Below the pieces are notes generated by a model that saw only the letters and a program-made list of their open reading frames with translations, was not told the origin of the DNA and made no database searches. Position numbers and translations under genes: made by a program. Shown in pieces: positions 1 through 22,627 of a DNA stretch of 64,000 nucleotides (positions are counted from its first letter, which is position 1; each line of letters opens with the position of its first letter). Source of the stretch: a virus; IMG/VR virus record IMGVR_UViG_3300021960_000059, positions 1-64,000 of that record, one strand, 5' to 3'.

Positions 1-117
1 TACCTTCACTTCTGGTTCCGGTTGTGACATCAGACTGCAACCACTCAGGGAGGTTAGGGTCAGGAGTACCACCAGTGTCTGCAACAATTGACCGCCATAG
101 TTTTGCTGTCGCACCAT
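1..117 (-). CDS. o-spanin-like (Rz1-like) lipoprotein nested in the i-spanin gene, partial
   Basis: In the +1 frame relative to the i-spanin, an ATG at 117 opens a frame that stays open to the window edge (39 codons). It encodes a basic N-terminus (MVRQQNYGG), a hydrophobic stretch (LLQTLVVLLTLTSL) and the lipobox L-S-G-C with Cys27. A Pro/Glu stretch (QPEPEV) follows, typical of short outer-membrane spanin lipoproteins. This is the classical embedded Rz/Rz1 arrangement of lambdoid phages, in which the two proteins fuse the inner and outer membranes at the last step of lysis. It implies a Gram-negative host. Its end lies outside the window. Confidence 0.7.
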   Translation of the reverse strand, partial: MVRQQNYGGQLLQTLVVLLTLTSLSGCSLMSQPEPEVKV

Positions 118-442
118 TCATCCTACCTTCTAATTTTGCCGCATCTTTCATTGCGTCTTGCACTAAATCTAATTGTCTTAATTTGTTTCTCAAGTCGTCA
201 CCATACTGTTCTGCCTTTCGCAGTTTTTGCGACAACTCGTTCATCAATTCTTGATTCTTTTCCATCTCATCTTTCATGAGGTCCATACTTTCATTCGCAG
301 TATCGATAGCAACCTCTAACTTCGCATTGTTCTCACGTAGTGTCTCGATACGTGCTTGGGTGTCCTTGTAATACCACATTGCACCGTACCCTACCCCACC
401 AAGGATTCCGAGGATAATGATCAGTGCGTAGAGTTTAATCAT
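1..442 (-). CDS. i-spanin-like (Rz-like) lysis protein, partial at the window edge
   Basis: The frame is open from the ATG at 442 to the window edge, so the C-terminus is missing. Residues about 4-22 form one hydrophobic N-terminal membrane segment (starting MIKLYALIIILGILGG). A long charged, heptad-like region follows (KDTQARIETLRENNAKLE, then MKDEMEKNQELMNELSQKL), as in inner-membrane spanins that bridge the periplasm. The start overlaps the upstream stop in an ATGA, implying translational coupling. The call rests on architecture and on the lipoprotein frame nested inside it; no sequence-level homology to lambda Rz was tested. An alternative is a generic membrane-anchored coiled-coil protein. 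Confidence 0.65.
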   Translation of the reverse strand, partial: MIKLYALIIILGILGGVGYGAMWYYKDTQARIETLRENNAKLEVAIDTANESMDLMKDEMEKNQELMNELSQKLRKAEQYGDDLRNKLRQLDLVQDAMKDAAKLEGRMNGATAKLWRSIVADTGGTPDPNLPEWLQSDVTTGTRSEG

Positions 443-13249: not shown

Positions 13250-13279
13250 ATTATATAACAATATTTCGTCTGCTGTCAA
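13250..13279 (-). promoter_or_regulatory. Consensus sigma70 promoter of the tRNA operon
   Basis: TTGACA (-35, 13279-13274), 18-nt spacer, TATAAT (-10, 13255-13250): both hexamers are perfect. Six nt downstream the transcript would begin with ACTGAGTGAGAGA, close to the leader box found after other early promoters in the window. Confidence 0.8.
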
Positions 13280-13449: not shown

Positions 13450-13479
13450 ATATTACCACGTTTATAAAAACTTTGTCAA
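13450..13479 (-). promoter_or_regulatory. Possible second sigma70-like promoter upstream of the tRNA operon
   Basis: TTGACA (13479-13474), 18-nt spacer, TAATAT (13455-13450). The -35 lies inside the end of the methyltransferase gene. The region from 13280 to 13450 holds no convincing gene (a 66-codon frame without a good ribosome site was rejected). Confidence 0.35.
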
Positions 13480-13923
13480 CCCCTGATTCATAAAAATATC
13501 TTTTATTTTTTCGTGTTCTTCTCGTGTTTGTGACTCTAATCTTTTTTCTGGATTTAGAGTATCACCAACTAAAATAGTTCCACCACTCAATCTCTTTTTG
13601 CATAGGTCTACATTATCTCTCATAATGTCTACACCGTATATATCTGCCAGTGCTTCCTCTTCTGTCATGTTGTAGAAGTAAACCTTTATCCACTTTACCG
13701 CAACAAGAAATTGACCGTCTCCACAAGCAGGGTCTAGAACTGTTTTTCCTTTGCAAAAAATATCTAGATCAGATTTTTTTAGCATATCTAAGACTAACTC
13801 TGTTGGAGTAAATATTTCTGCTGTTGCCTTCACACGATATTCATCTCTTCCGATTTCTCCCATGTACTCATGGTCATTCATCTTCTGTTCGATTTTATCC
13901 CAAATAACTTTCGACATAATCAA
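13462..13923 (-). CDS. N-terminal half (motifs X-I-II-III) of a split gamma-type DNA methyltransferase
   Basis: 153 aa. EIFTPTELVLDML is a typical motif X. LDPACGDGQFLVA is motif I (SAM binding), YGVDIMRDNVDLCKKRL is motif II and ILVGDTL is motif III. In N6-adenine methyltransferases of the TaqI/Eco57I type the next element is motif IV, NPPF/Y. Here the protein ends soon after motif III (QGLTKFL), and NPPF instead opens the separate gene transcribed just before it (13895-14794). The two genes overlap by 29 nt, or 23 nt from the second ATG. The two proteins presumably assemble into one enzyme. Confidence 0.75.
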   Translation of the reverse strand: MIMSKVIWDKIEQKMNDHEYMGEIGRDEYRVKATAEIFTPTELVLDMLKKSDLDIFCKGKTVLDPACGDGQFLVAVKWIKVYFYNMTEEEALADIYGVDIMRDNVDLCKKRLSGGTILVGDTLNPEKRLESQTREEHEKIKDIFMNQGLTKFL

Positions 13924-14794
13924 TTTCTTTCCGAGTCAATTTAAACATACTAAACAAATCAGAGTCTGTCATTCTACCACAATTTAATATGTTTGGCAAT
14001 GCCTTAAATACCTTTTCGTTGCCAAAACCTGACCATTTGGCAGTCTTGAGAATGTACTTAAACAATTTTAAATTTAAATTGTCGGCAAGGATATTACCAG
14101 AACTCTCGTTTGGGACCACGATATAATATGCCATATCTGTTCCACCATACACACCATCGTCATAGAATGGTTTAGTGTAACCACTGCGAGACCACATTAC
14201 CTTTTTCTCGTCTGCCCAATCTTGTCTGATACTTGAGTACCACACCTGAGAGTTTGTGTGAAAAATAGGGTAGATGTGTTTGTCTGTTTTTTCTTTGCTG
14301 ATAACATCAGTACGATGAATTAAAACATTGTGGCAATTTACATAATCGTATCTTACATCAAGTTTGTCTTTTGTGTCAAATATAACTTTTTGATGTATCG
14401 AATAAGATTCCTCACACATATCATTCGGCAAATAAAACGACGATTGATCTATCAGTTTGTCAAAGGTTCCATTGTCTGTCCCGATCTTAGTTTCGGTAGA
14501 ATCCGACTGAGCATTGACAATCATGTAATCTGCAAAGGTGCTTCCAATATTGGGGAAGTATTTTTTAGTATCCAGATTTAAGAAACTCACCACCTTGTCT
14601 TGGAATATTTTTAATATCTTGTTAGAAGGTGACAGAAAACTACTGGGAGAAACCTGAAGCAAAACACCATTTGGTTTTAACCACTCGTCAAAAGTTTTTT
14701 GTGTGAATGTGATCCACAACTTATGTTGAGTTTTTTTCCTGTTTAAAGAATCCTGAAAGGGGGGATTTGCAACGACAACATCAAATTTTATCAA
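13895..14794 (-). CDS. C-terminal half (motif IV, catalytic, and target recognition) of a split gamma-type DNA methyltransferase
   Basis: 299 aa starting MIKFDVVVANPPFQDS. FDVVVANPPF is the motif IV catalytic loop of adenine methyltransferases, here within the first dozen residues. There is no motif I anywhere in this protein. LLQVSPSSFLSPS fits motifs V-VI. The C-terminal ~150 residues (WSRSGYTKPFYDDG, then KWSGFGNEKVFKALPN) resemble Eco57I-type target-recognition regions. It follows the nuclease-like gene with an ATGA overlap and precedes the motif I half, so the coding order is IV-TRD then X-I-III, a permutation of the usual gamma order. Confidence 0.75.
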   Translation of the reverse strand: MIKFDVVVANPPFQDSLNRKKTQHKLWITFTQKTFDEWLKPNGVLLQVSPSSFLSPSNKILKIFQDKVVSFLNLDTKKYFPNIGSTFADYMIVNAQSDSTETKIGTDNGTFDKLIDQSSFYLPNDMCEESYSIHQKVIFDTKDKLDVRYDYVNCHNVLIHRTDVISKEKTDKHIYPIFHTNSQVWYSSIRQDWADEKKVMWSRSGYTKPFYDDGVYGGTDMAYYIVVPNESSGNILADNLNLKLFKYILKTAKWSGFGNEKVFKALPNILNCGRMTDSDLFSMFKLTRKEIDYVESYLG

Positions 14795-15915
14795 CAGACA
14801 TTTGCTCCCTTGAGGTTAAGGTATGTGTTGATTGACGTAGCAATCTCTTTAGACTTCTTTGGTCTGCGTTCACCATAGTGTAATTCGATACCTTCTTTTT
14901 TGTGGAACATAGTGCCTTCGTACTGACCAGTTTTAGGAAGATGCCATGCTCCATTTTTCTGCAATGTAAACGGAACATCAATGTTAATGATTTGCCCACC
15001 ATCATCAGTAAGACTAAACAATATTGACTTCTTGTTCTTTATATATTCAACCTTGCATTGGTCTGAATTGACACGCTCTAATAGTTTGGCATAGTCCTCA
15101 TCAAACAAAGAACACAAATACCGATCTTTACTAATGAGTAAAAGTTCTTCGTCATAGTTGAGACCTGCCATTTTTAATACTCGCGGTTTGATCAAATCGT
15201 TTGGCAACTTCGATAGTGCTTCTATCGTAACTTCGATTGCCTCTTCACTCAGGTTTTTACAATCGTCTTTCCATTGCGTATCGATGTTAGACCATAATCG
15301 AGCATCTTCACTGTTTACATACCTTTGCTTCAGAATGTTCGACACATTTTCATAAGTGTTGTAAGCATCTTTTAGATAGGAAAGTCCCAACCTATCAAGA
15401 AGTTCATTTCGCTTTTCCTTATCACTTCCTTTAAACACATCGTTTGTGATTGGGTCTTTAAATGTCCCCACTCCAACAGACTGAAAAATAAAGTTGTTTA
15501 AAAATGAGACCCAAGTTCCAGAGCACAATTGAGGACGCTCATAACCGTTTTTGTAATTTTTTAGTGAGACCGAAATAATTCTGTCTTTAAACTTGATAAC
15601 AAAGTCGCCTTTCAGTTTTTGGTTTCTGAATTGCTTTTCTACATTTATGAAGTCAAACTTTTCGTTTGGGTATTTTTTCAGCAAACTACCAAAGAATTCT
15701 TTCACAACACTATCAATGTTCTTCTTATATGATGAGTTTGCAAAATCGTTTTCGATGTTTCTTTCACGACAGTAATCTTGGAAAATATCAAATTTTTCTT
15801 GCACATCATCGGTTAAAGAACAACCACTCTCAACAGCAAGTTTCTGTAAAACATAAACAATATATGCTTCTGCGGCATCCTGAATGTAATGATCTTTTGC
15901 ACAACCCGCACTCAT
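14791..15915 (-). CDS. Putative restriction endonuclease-like partner of the split methyltransferase
   Basis: 374 aa. KLKGDFVIKFKDRIISVSLK (about residues 103-122) gives a G-D-x(12)-S-x-K pattern compatible with a PD-(D/E)xK nuclease core. The nearby QLCSGTW parallels the SLK...QLMS block of the 511-aa cargo protein. No SAM or helicase motif is present. It starts with a strong AAGGAG site and its own early promoter, and overlaps the methyltransferase half by 4 nt. Known type II systems pair such genes. Here the combination suggests a phage-borne restriction-modification unit for excluding competitors, but cleavage is not shown and the fold call is from motifs only. Confidence 0.5.
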   Translation of the reverse strand: MSAGCAKDHYIQDAAEAYIVYVLQKLAVESGCSLTDDVQEKFDIFQDYCRERNIENDFANSSYKKNIDSVVKEFFGSLLKKYPNEKFDFINVEKQFRNQKLKGDFVIKFKDRIISVSLKNYKNGYERPQLCSGTWVSFLNNFIFQSVGVGTFKDPITNDVFKGSDKEKRNELLDRLGLSYLKDAYNTYENVSNILKQRYVNSEDARLWSNIDTQWKDDCKNLSEEAIEVTIEALSKLPNDLIKPRVLKMAGLNYDEELLLISKDRYLCSLFDEDYAKLLERVNSDQCKVEYIKNKKSILFSLTDDGGQIINIDVPFTLQKNGAWHLPKTGQYEGTMFHKKEGIELHYGERRPKKSKEIATSINTYLNLKGANVC

Positions 15916-15958
15916 TTTCTAAAACTCCTTAATACATTCTCTCTCGATCAACTGTATT

Positions 15959-15988
15959 AGTTTAACACTACTCAGTGACTTCTGTCAA
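15959..15988 (-). promoter_or_regulatory. Early sigma70 promoter of the restriction-modification-like cassette
   Basis: TTGACA (15988-15983), 18-nt spacer, TAAACT (15964-15959), then 6 nt and the leader box GTTGATCGAGAGAG. The -35 lies within the end of the SprT-like gene. It drives the 374-aa gene (ATG at 15915). Confidence 0.7.
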
Positions 15989-19547: not shown

Positions 19548-19807
19548 GATGTATATACTCCATCTAACTTATCACGGAATTGTTCGATTTTTACAAGTCT
19601 ATCTTTGCCGTTCCATTTGATGTAATCTTTTTCTGGATTAGCTGCGAGATTATTCAGTAAAGGTAAAATCATGTTGTATAAAGTATCGCATTTTTCTTTG
19701 TATTTGTCAACCTCAGATGCTGTTGACTGTGCGGTGGACTTGACTTCTTTTACAATGTCAAGTTCGTTTTCATCCACCATAGTGAACCCAAAATCAAAGT
19801 CACTCAT
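19544..19807 (-). CDS. Conserved small protein between gp43 and uvsX
   Basis: 87 aa from the ATG at 19807 (MSDFDFGFTMVDENELDIVK), which overlaps the polymerase stop in ATGA; the longer upstream frame is a shadow of the polymerase. A coiled-coil-like centre (STASEVDKYKEKCDTLYNMI) and a C-terminal block (NPEKDYIKWNGKDRLVKIEQ) are visible. The FDFGFTMVDE opening recurs in small proteins near uvsX in marine T4-like phages. Both ends overlap neighbours by 4 nt, so its dose is tied to polymerase and UvsX. The role is unknown. Confidence 0.65.
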   Translation of the reverse strand: MSDFDFGFTMVDENELDIVKEVKSTAQSTASEVDKYKEKCDTLYNMILPLLNNLAANPEKDYIKWNGKDRLVKIEQFRDKLDGVYTS

Positions 19808-20910
19808 GTGAAAAAATCCTCCAATGTTGCTTTCTTTTCCGAACTCCAACCAATCGCACTGAGAATAGCACTGATGGGTTCAAGGAATGCTTTGTCAAAC
19901 TGTGTGTCGTAGTCTATGTATTGATTCAGCCCGAACTCTTTCGGTAGGGAAGACATAATGCTAAGAACATTTTGCCGAATAGGATTTGGAGTTTTGAGAT
20001 AACAAAACTTGATCTTTTCACCGTCTTTGATTGACTCATAACGTTTCTCCAACTTATGTTGCTTGAGCAAGTGATTGTAGAGTAGACTACCTCTTACATG
20101 AATCGGAGTGCTTTTCATAAACTCCAACTCATCCCCATTGGTTGTATATTTAGTGAGATCAGTCACTCCACGAGGGAATGCAACTTCCTCAAAGGGTAGA
20201 GTGCGAAACTTTTCTTTAAAGTCTGCGATGTATTTTTGTACAGTTGCCTCGTCAGAACTCATAATCAGTTTGACTGCACCCTTCAACGCATCACGACAAG
20301 ACTGTGGTGTTGATGATTTGACAATCTCCAATCCCATGACTTTAAGTTTAGGTTCAGTATATCGTACACCTTCGTTGTCATACACATTGAGTGCATAACG
20401 CTTCTTCGCAGTCCAGATGCCCTTGTCCGCAATTGCCTCACGTTTCATGAACATCTTCTGATCATATACATTCATCAGATCAGCAAGGTTTTGATAACTC
20501 TGATCAATAAACGGTTCAATCTTCTTTTGAGCAACATCGTCCAAGAATTTGACCACCCGGTCAGTATCAAGGTTTTGTACTCCGTCTCCCTTCGTAAACA
20601 CTTGGTTAACCAATCGGTCAAAAGTGATGTATAGCGAATCTGTATCTGAAGCAATGACATAATCTTCACCCTCTGTCTTCAGTAGTTTATTAAGGTATTC
20701 ATTCACTCGTGCTTCGATCCACCGAATGGACAACTGCCCACTCAGCGTAATCGACTCTGCCATTCGCACATCAAAGAAACGAAAGTATTGGTTACCCAAC
20801 GCACCATAGGCAGAGTTCAACTGAACCTTCTTTGCGAGTTGCAGATTCTTGTACTTAGAGATGTCTTTCTCTAACTGCTTCTTGCGAGTAAGAAGTTCTT
20901 GTTTTGTCAA
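19804..20910 (-). CDS. 43B: DNA polymerase gp43, C-terminal part (fingers, palm motif C, thumb)
   Basis: 368 aa. It begins with a helix (MTKQELLTRKKQLEKDISKY) that forms the second half of the fingers. Motif B follows (KKVQLNSAYGALGN), then motif C (ASDTDSLYI) and the KKRY element before the thumb. Motif A and the exonuclease are on a separate gene (21170-22627). With the N-part (485 aa) the total of 853 aa approaches the usual length of T4-type gp43 (898 aa in T4). The start overlaps the stop of the 88-aa gene by 4 nt. The C-terminus should carry the clamp-binding tail (KKATLEDFFT). Confidence 0.9.
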   Translation of the reverse strand: MTKQELLTRKKQLEKDISKYKNLQLAKKVQLNSAYGALGNQYFRFFDVRMAESITLSGQLSIRWIEARVNEYLNKLLKTEGEDYVIASDTDSLYITFDRLVNQVFTKGDGVQNLDTDRVVKFLDDVAQKKIEPFIDQSYQNLADLMNVYDQKMFMKREAIADKGIWTAKKRYALNVYDNEGVRYTEPKLKVMGLEIVKSSTPQSCRDALKGAVKLIMSSDEATVQKYIADFKEKFRTLPFEEVAFPRGVTDLTKYTTNGDELEFMKSTPIHVRGSLLYNHLLKQHKLEKRYESIKDGEKIKFCYLKTPNPIRQNVLSIMSSLPKEFGLNQYIDYDTQFDKAFLEPISAILSAIGWSSEKKATLEDFFT

Positions 20911-21173
20911 AGTACCAATCCACTCACTGCTGAACGGTATGCCTTTTCAATGTCATTGTTTACTGCTGTGACGAACACATACTGCTGAAATGTTACCGCA
21001 TCCGGATTCATTTTCCCTGTTACGCAAATACCTGCCGCAAACCCCATACCTTGTTCATTCTGGATCAGCATCCGAGGATCATCTAAAATAATGTTCCCAT
21101 CTTTCAATGTTCGATACTTACCAACAAACTCGCCTGCAATCGTTACGACTGCTACTACGTCACCTTTTGTCAT
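20907..21173 (-). CDS. Small Sm-like protein wedged in the split polymerase gene
   Basis: 88 aa: GDVVAVVTIAGEFVGKYRTL opens a small beta barrel, followed by NIILDDPRMLI and QYVFVTAVNNDIEKAYRSAV. It overlaps the polymerase N-part by 4 nt upstream and the C-part by 4 nt downstream, so all three proteins are coupled. It shares layout and end motif with the 125-aa protein at 40333-40710 (VNNDIEKAYRS versus VDEDIDAYYIKS; ILDDPRMLI versus SILEPLLLEI), suggesting paralogues with an LSm/Hfq-like fold. It is not a homing endonuclease. It might stabilise the split enzyme or bind RNA; the function is open. Confidence 0.6.
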   Translation of the reverse strand: MTKGDVVAVVTIAGEFVGKYRTLKDGNIILDDPRMLIQNEQGMGFAAGICVTGKMNPDAVTFQQYVFVTAVNNDIEKAYRSAVSGLVL

Positions 21174-22627
21174 GTCAACTCCTTCAGTTGCTTATTTACT
21201 TCTTCAAGTTCTTTCTGTGCTTCAATCATTTTTTGTTTATAAAGTACTCGTTCATTATACATCGTTTCCATCATTTCTGGCAAGAACCCTTGGCAATCTT
21301 TTCGATAGTAGAATCCATTGGCAGTCAAGCATTTGTCTTTGTCTATGGCATCGTCCCATTGATCAATCATTTTCATATCAACGATGTCGTCTACTGTGAT
21401 GTCTTCTTTCATATTGGGTATGAATGTGTCTGGACTGATGTTGTACTGCATGATCAAATGCGGATACAACGAGTTCAAGTCAAACGACATCACCCAATTG
21501 TGCATCCCAACCTGTGGGTCTTTCACATACGCACCCGCATACTTGGAGTCCTTGCCTTGGAAATCCTTTGGCGGAATCACGATCTGTTGCTTGAGCAGGT
21601 AATTATGTATCAACACATCCCACATGCGTACTTGCGTGAAGACATCACCATAGTTTACTTGAGCATCGTAAGCAATCGTCAGTGCCTGTTCGATGAGACG
21701 CATCTTATCCTCCAGTTTGTCAACCAACTCAACATCCTTGATGTTGTAGTCAATGAACTTCTGGTAATCTAACTTATACAGTTGGTGTAGTGTCTCCATC
21801 TCAGAGTAGTCGAGTTTATTCTCACCAAGTTCTACATAACCGATATGATCTAGTCGATACGACTCTTGTTGTGAGTATGTGAACTTTTTATAGAGTTGCA
21901 TATAGTCAAGCACTGCGAGTCCAACTAATGTATACTCTTTTGATTCCTTACCAAAGTTGCCCTTAAAGGTTCGTTCTTGAATCCACTTCGCAGGGGATAG
22001 ACGACGAGCATCTTTCTCACCGATCAGTTTTGTGATACGATTGATTAGATAAGGTATGTCGAATCCATCAACATTCCAACCAGTAACAATGTCAACATCA
22101 ATGCGTTCCCAGAACTCAAGAAATACATCTAGGAGATGTCTTTCTCCACGACAATCCACGTAAGATACAGTATCACGAGTATTGTTATACTCACCGACAC
22201 CAAAAACAAAATATCTGCCATTGACCGAAACCGTAATTGCTGTAACAGGTTGGTTCGCTATCTCTGGATTGGGGAAACCTTCCTCACTACCAACCTCAAT
22301 ATCAATGTTTGCTACTTTCACTACGTCGGGATCAAACTCTTTGCCGTAGTGTTCATTGAGACATGCATATGCCCAATTGGTTGAACCGTAGATCTTAAAG
22401 TTATCTACTTCCTCATATCTAGACACAAAGTCTCGTGCCTCTTTAATTGATCCCAACTCCATCGGTTCGACAGGAGATCCAAGCACTGTCTTCCAAGTCG
22501 TCGGCCGACGAGATGGCACATAGAGGGTAGGTGAATAATCAATACGGTCTACAATGCGACGACCATTGTCGTAACCGCGAATGAAGACCGTATCACCTTT
22601 GCTATAGAAGTTTGTATAAAATCTCAT
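21170..22627 (-). CDS. 43A: DNA polymerase gp43, N-terminal part (N-domain, exonuclease, palm motif A)
   Basis: 485 aa. Family B 3'-5' exonuclease motifs: Exo I VANIDIEVGS, Exo II TGWNVDGFDIPYL, Exo III YNIKDVELVDKL. Palm motif A is MSFDLNSLYPHLIMQYN. The protein ends within the first fingers helix (NERVLYKQKMIEAQKELEEV, then NKQLKELT) before motif B, so it cannot polymerise alone. Split gp43A/gp43B genes are known in some Aeromonas T4-like phages. Here the break falls at the tip of the fingers, where two antiparallel helices could pair across the gap. It overlaps the upstream HAD gene by 4 nt. Confidence 0.9.
   Translation of the reverse strand: MRFYTNFYSKGDTVFIRGYDNGRRIVDRIDYSPTLYVPSRRPTTWKTVLGSPVEPMELGSIKEARDFVSRYEEVDNFKIYGSTNWAYACLNEHYGKEFDPDVVKVANIDIEVGSEEGFPNPEIANQPVTAITVSVNGRYFVFGVGEYNNTRDTVSYVDCRGERHLLDVFLEFWERIDVDIVTGWNVDGFDIPYLINRITKLIGEKDARRLSPAKWIQERTFKGNFGKESKEYTLVGLAVLDYMQLYKKFTYSQQESYRLDHIGYVELGENKLDYSEMETLHQLYKLDYQKFIDYNIKDVELVDKLEDKMRLIEQALTIAYDAQVNYGDVFTQVRMWDVLIHNYLLKQQIVIPPKDFQGKDSKYAGAYVKDPQVGMHNWVMSFDLNSLYPHLIMQYNISPDTFIPNMKEDITVDDIVDMKMIDQWDDAIDKDKCLTANGFYYRKDCQGFLPEMMETMYNERVLYKQKMIEAQKELEEVNKQLKELT

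Follow-up and report, generated by a model that had tools for sequence, protein, structure and literature searches.

A putative two-subunit, circularly permuted adenine methyltransferase in a predicted TTSAA-specific restriction-modification system of a T4-like marine phage

Three consecutive genes in IMG/VR virus record IMGVR_UViG_3300021960_000059 encode proteins of 374, 299 and 151 amino acids (aa), which very probably form a complete orthodox Type II restriction-modification system of a lytic, T4-like marine phage. The predicted recognition sequence is TTSAA (TTCAA or TTGAA), and the predicted N6-adenine methyltransferase consists of two subunits in permuted order. We analysed positions 1 to 64,000 of the 68-kb record (hereafter the window). 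The evidence comprises two conserved methyltransferase halves, their permuted order, fused homologues, a nuclease-like fold modelled for the first protein, linkage of the genes, purifying selection and avoidance of TTSAA. An earlier, sequence-only reading had described the three open reading frames (ORFs; 374, 299 and 153 aa) as a restriction-modification-like cassette; ORFs, order and motifs are as first described, and the modelled fold, the linkage and the TTSAA avoidance lend support to that interpretation.

The recognition sequence was predicted from phages that carry the endonuclease without the methyltransferase, with expected counts taken from a Markov model. These carriers are the cyanophages P-RSM6 (NC_020855.1) and S-SZBM1 (NC_070839.1) and several IMG/VR contigs; the methyltransferase family was found in neither of the two complete genomes nor in nine contigs, and the same search was positive in all five controls, of which S-CAM7 is a distant one. 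An active endonuclease would require a carrier without the methyltransferase to lack the site or have other protection. Five endonuclease-only phage sequences (630 kb) contain no TTSAA, against 1553 expected; of the 5-mer pairs whose pooled expectation is 30 or more, TTCAA/TTGAA alone has a zero count in those five. Because these phages have lost every copy, TTSAA is the predicted cutting site. The zero count holds in all endonuclease-only loci of that cyanophage group (L106-L115, L124, L127-L130, L134, L138, P-RSM6 and S-SZBM1). TTSAA does occur in L120 and L143, short contigs on which the endonuclease gene is truncated or at the end and whose phages may or may not have the methyltransferase. 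A further contig (G004, IMGVR_UViG_3300006329_000001) has a normal TTSAA density to about 52 kb and none from 55 kb on, which suggests a chimera of two different phages; given this abrupt boundary, its first 55 kb, with normal density, were omitted from the count after inspection.

Seven cyanophages without the endonuclease contain TTSAA 4927 times, with 4958 expected. One without the gene, P-RSM3, has 737 sites (721 expected) and shares its recorded host (NATL2A) and sea with P-RSM6, and a host-driven loss of TTSAA was rejected on this ground. CCGG was also considered as the site and dismissed: the endonuclease-only phages have none, but neither has S-RIM8, a phage without the gene. Phages with both genes retain TTSAA, which is nevertheless the most depleted 5-mer in 6 of 14 such sequences, including all four phages whose endonuclease is 58-61% identical to that of the window. 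The endonuclease tree groups the endonuclease-only phages and methyltransferase-bearing phages in a single clade, and the latter keep the site (204 observed of 229 expected, and 412 of 461). Avoidance of the recognition site is reported to be specific to orthodox Type II systems (PMC4687349).

The 374-aa ORF contains KGDFVIKFKDRIISVSLK. Pfam, NCBIfam, PHROGs and PADLOC assigned this protein to no family, and its profile found no convincing relative among PDB sequences. The AlphaFold2 model has a predicted local distance difference test score (pLDDT) of 92.5, and its three best structural matches are HinP1I, HinP1I and MspI (Z 7.9, 6.6 and 5.9), followed by other PD-(D/E)XK nucleases. The sequence-only reading had left the nuclease fold to structure prediction, and the PD-(D/E)XK-like model, with HinP1I as its best match, points to such a fold. 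The monomeric Type II enzymes R.HinP1I and R.MspI match across the whole chain (Z 7.9 and 5.9), whereas the window enzyme is larger (374 versus about 250 aa), has SxK at the catalytic lysine and a different predicted site, and shows no detectable sequence similarity to solved structures. Among 59 non-redundant homologues, the signature E16...K102-x-D104...S117-x-K119...Q129..S132-G-T is essentially invariant: the active-site acidic residue and lysine (D104 and K119) do not vary, nor do E16, K102, Q129 and S132-T134, and S117 takes the place of the usual acidic residue ahead of x-K. The median ratio of nonsynonymous to synonymous substitution rates (dN/dS) is 0.15, 0.19 and 0.19 for the three genes, all of which are under purifying selection.

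The 299-aa ORF opens with LIKFDVVVANPPF and begins at a TTG (14794) that overlaps the endonuclease stop; homologues have ATG or TTG at the same place, and an alternative ATG (frame MSVDKI*) was dropped as a start because relatives begin at this TTG/ATG. The 153-aa ORF (13462-13923, minus strand) carries FTPTE (motif X), DPACGDGQF (I) and YGVDIMRDN (II), and stops immediately ahead of the position expected for motif IV. It opens at a TTG (13923); judged by homology, translation of subunit 2 probably starts at the ATG at 13917, giving 151 aa. In the PADLOC model mad2, positions 268-353 are covered by the short chain and 357-433 by the long one. As mad2 thus places the short chain before the long one, the two are complementary neighbours whose canonical order is opposite to their gene order.

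Nine phage relatives have a single-chain methyltransferase of roughly 430-500 aa in the order IV, target-recognition domain (TRD), X, I, III, with the layout NPPF-TRD-(Lys-rich linker)-FTP-DPACGNG. By its sequence, then, the window methyltransferase is of gamma type, its order circularly permuted to the beta-like IV-TRD-X-I-III and its chain split between TRD and X. The sequence-only reading of a split and permuted methyltransferase is supported; its account of a chain cut between III and IV with the halves swapped is better put differently, because in the fused relatives the termini of the permuted chain lie at III/IV and the real split falls between TRD and X. With gamma-class N6-adenine enzymes (M.TaqI, M.BseCI, CamA and PglX) the window shares the NPPF of motif IV, the DPACGxG of motif I, the FTP of motif X and a gamma-type TRD, but those enzymes run X-I-III-IV-TRD on one chain, whereas the window has IV-TRD followed by X-I-III on two. 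The beta-class enzymes M.MboIIA, M.RsrI and CcrM have the order found in the window's genes and in the fused relatives' chains; they differ in being single-chain, as are the nine relatives, while the motif signatures and the large recognition domain of the window are gamma-type.

To model the fold, both window chains were joined in gene order as one polypeptide and aligned with 31 relatives. This gave a confident methyltransferase model (pLDDT 83.8; predicted template modelling score 0.81). Beta-class structures match it through both halves in order (model residues 1..404 or beyond): MboIIA at Z 11.6 (1..404), HpyAVI at 11.2, RsrI at 10.3 and CcrM at 10.2. Gamma-class structures superpose from their motif IV side on subunit 1 only, that is, on the part corresponding to their IV-TRD (TaqI 1..273, CamA 1..286, BseCI 1..291). 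A beta-class match over both halves together with a gamma-class match over the first part is the behaviour expected of a gamma-type enzyme in beta order.

We scanned viral contigs with subunit 1, the fused family and the endonuclease as queries, and bacterial genomes as well. Among 42 non-redundant phage methyltransferases, 33 are split and nine fused; seven bacterial ones were all classed as split. The same ORF boundaries recur in the 33 phage loci and in the bacterial loci, and this identical split in dozens of loci rules out an assembly error, a frameshift or a sequencing error that breaks an ORF, the last of which the sequence-only reading had named as a possible refutation. The search for homologues that it had called for showed the parts to be common to many phage and bacterial loci, with the endonuclease gene nearly always near. 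Endonuclease and methyltransferase genes are separate and adjacent, as in orthodox Type II systems, and in nearly every non-redundant relative the endonuclease homologue adjoins the methyltransferase or is separated from it by one gene of about 375 aa; at one locus (L149), the neighbourhood of the methyltransferase showed no homologue of the endonuclease. In bacterial loci the endonuclease lies upstream and co-directional, or nearby on the opposite strand; the linkage thus outlasts rearrangement of gene orientation. The endonuclease-linked split forms are one clade (support 94/97). The outgroup is remote, on a very long branch, and the change may have been a fission or a fusion. Permuted order also occurs in remoter T4-like phages, as split genes in Klebsiella phage PKO111, Shigella phage PSD9, Aeromonas phage Ah1 and Synechococcus phage S-CAM7 and fused in Aeromonas phage ZPAH1. 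Being found both there and in the endonuclease-linked family, the arrangement is recurrent rather than a one-off.

A known counterpart in predicted specificity is AgsI, a Type II endonuclease that recognizes TTSAA (PMC5931654). The window system resembles it in predicted site and differs in being phage-borne. Bacterial homologues of the window system were found in Actinomycetota, including Curtobacterium of the Microbacteriaceae, the family of Agreia, the source organism of AgsI. Across 299 Microbacteriaceae genomes, the endonuclease was found nowhere beyond the genome already known.

Several observations weigh against our interpretation. The HinP1I match is moderate (Z 7.9, Foldseek E 0.014, root-mean-square deviation 4.7 over 220 residues). 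The joined methyltransferase is an artificial fusion, in which a four-letter codon (GGAT) was read as one residue and nine residues of the short ORF were dropped; its junction (residues 305-315) has pLDDT below 50, and the model bears on the fold, not on the association of two separate chains. The window's own TTSAA depletion is weak (254 observed, 301 expected; rank 6 of 496), so its specificity was deduced from relatives, and the site assigned to the window rests on their genomes. A restriction-modification system of this type could then have a site other than TTSAA in the window, where CCAGG is absent (0 against 38.5) and the endonuclease shares about 40% identity with its counterparts in endonuclease-only phages. 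We consider this unlikely: phages with endonucleases 58-61% identical to the window's have TTSAA as their most depleted 5-mer, and the recognition part of the methyltransferase shows strong conservation, even in relatives paired with a P-RSM6-type endonuclease.

Lone methyltransferases are frequent in phages, and host enzymes could account for TTSAA depletion; the methyltransferase might then serve only as anti-restriction against a TTSAA-specific host enzyme, with the 374-aa gene encoding no active endonuclease. This is very unlikely. Purifying selection acts on the 374-aa gene, whose nuclease-like signature is invariant and which stays linked to the methyltransferase; and phages lack TTSAA when they have the endonuclease but no methyltransferase, irrespective of their host, as the 737 sites of P-RSM3 show. 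That the halves are non-functional remnants of a methyltransferase split by mutation is hardly credible: motif IV is degenerate (NFPF) in the distant relative of S-CAM7, but all catalytic motifs are intact in the alignment of the window and its endonuclease-linked relatives, the linked split forms make up a single clade well spread over phages and three bacterial phyla, dN/dS is 0.15-0.19, and TTSAA is kept in phages with endonuclease and halves and absent from those without the halves.

Under the Type II restriction-modification reading, the 299-aa and 151-aa chains would assemble into one N6-adenine methyltransferase, with the S-adenosylmethionine (SAM) site (X, I-III) on subunit 2, and both the NPPF loop for catalysis and the domain for DNA recognition on subunit 1. 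We infer such a heterodimer and adenine as the methylated base, along with cleavage by the endonuclease and the biological role. The methyltransferase would shield phage DNA at TTSAA, and the 374-aa PD-(D/E)XK endonuclease would cut unmethylated TTSAA, fragmenting unmodified DNA in the cell, be it the host chromosome, co-infecting phages or both. Protection of phage DNA and cutting of unmodified DNA during infection are the most likely functions, and exclusion of rivals or cleavage of host DNA, as the sequence-only reading had proposed, may be what they achieve. The endonuclease-only cyanophages P-RSM6 and S-SZBM1 are probably immune through their purged TTSAA sites and turn the enzyme against the DNA of hosts or rivals; the window would then have the methylation-protected counterpart. 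The closest functional precedent is found in the chloroviruses, lytic viruses with their own endonuclease and methyltransferase side by side, whose endonucleases are believed to degrade host DNA and for which an exclusion role was tested and not supported (PMC7019647); they differ in being eukaryotic viruses that package the endonuclease in the virion (PMC7019647).

The window offers what is probably a natural adenine methyltransferase of two subunits in circularly permuted order, which can be compared with its single-chain relatives, and it leads to a predicted recognition sequence for a family of marine-phage endonucleases that lacks annotation. The natural contrast between endonucleases with and without a methyltransferase makes the role of restriction in lytic phages testable; P-RSM3 and P-RSM6, with the same recorded host, have 737 predicted targets and none.

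Table 1. Genes and sequence elements of the cassette, in window coordinates
Feature	Position	Strand	Basis
Restriction endonuclease gene, 374 aa, predicted PD-(D/E)XK, HinP1I/MspI-like	14791..15915	-	AlphaFold2 model, structural matches, conserved residues
Putative catalytic stretch D104...S117-x-K119 of endonuclease	15559..15606	-	Homologue alignments
Methyltransferase subunit 1, 299 aa: motif IV (NPPF) and TRD	13895..14794	-	Pfam Eco57I 4.9e-8; homologues
Motif IV N-P-P-F (subunit 1)	14756..14767	-	Invariant in alignments
Methyltransferase subunit 2, 151 aa: motifs X, I, II, III	13462..13917	-	Pfam N6_Mtase 6e-6; homologue starts
Motif I DPACGDGQF, SAM binding (subunit 2)	13708..13734	-	Sequence and alignment
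Motif X F-T-P (subunit 2)	13804..13812	-	Sequence and alignment
Ribosome-binding-like AAGGAG 5' of endonuclease ATG	15925..15930	-	Read from sequence
Promoter-like TTGACA-18-TAAACT, 10/12	15959..15988	-	Promoter-site scan; varies between relatives

The promoter-like TTGACA-18-TAAACT box noted in the sequence-only reading exists, but the claim that it gives the cassette an early transcript of its own is weak: promoter-like sites in the region number 17 against 11.2 +/- 3.1 in shuffles, a modest excess, and a strong box is confined to some of the relatives. A perfect promoter-like site, TTGACA-18-TATAAT, lies at 13250-13279 (minus strand), just 5' of a tRNA cluster.

Variant arrangements were seen among the relatives. 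The gene of about 375 aa between endonuclease and methyltransferase (L010 2884-4008, L018 2905-4008, L022 2926-4008; also L011, L016, L028 and L029) has no Pfam family and, by eye, a ParB-like stretch. In the T-even relatives PKO111 and PSD9 (L003 1524-3459 and L154 985-2950), the motif-IV chain has by eye a GIY-YIG-like N-terminal region; the split X-I half follows it and a DNA primase gene is near, with no annotated endonuclease of the window family alongside. An uncultured 484-kb phage (LR756508.1; L155 3004-5387) has a motif-IV chain, then a 256-aa ORF and then the X-I half. Judged by eye, the 256-aa ORF is similar to a different PD-(D/E)XK nuclease, and the locus may be another restriction system whose methyltransferase is split and permuted. 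S-CAM7 (L005), whose split pair has the degenerate motif IV (NFPF), has a second X-I half elsewhere in its genome (W03:C1:43728-44054). At L075 (1610-2527), a motif-IV chain lies among packaging-like genes, and no X-I half was detected on the contig.

The cassette is situated between a replication block and a four-tRNA cluster. The T4-like character of the phage is evident in a DnaB-type (gp41-like) helicase, UvsX and a split DNA polymerase on the flank of the locus, and the nearest portal proteins are those of Kyanoviridae cyanophages such as S-RIM8 (58%). CCWGG does not occur in the whole 64-kb window (38 expected), as though a CCWGG-specific restriction enzyme were present in its host or had been in an earlier one. 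Two ORFs (485 and 368 aa; 19804-22627, minus strand) make up the family-B DNA polymerase, with an 88-aa ORF of no recognised family in between; each junction of the series has a 4-bp overlap, and PHROGs has a family of its own for each polymerase half.
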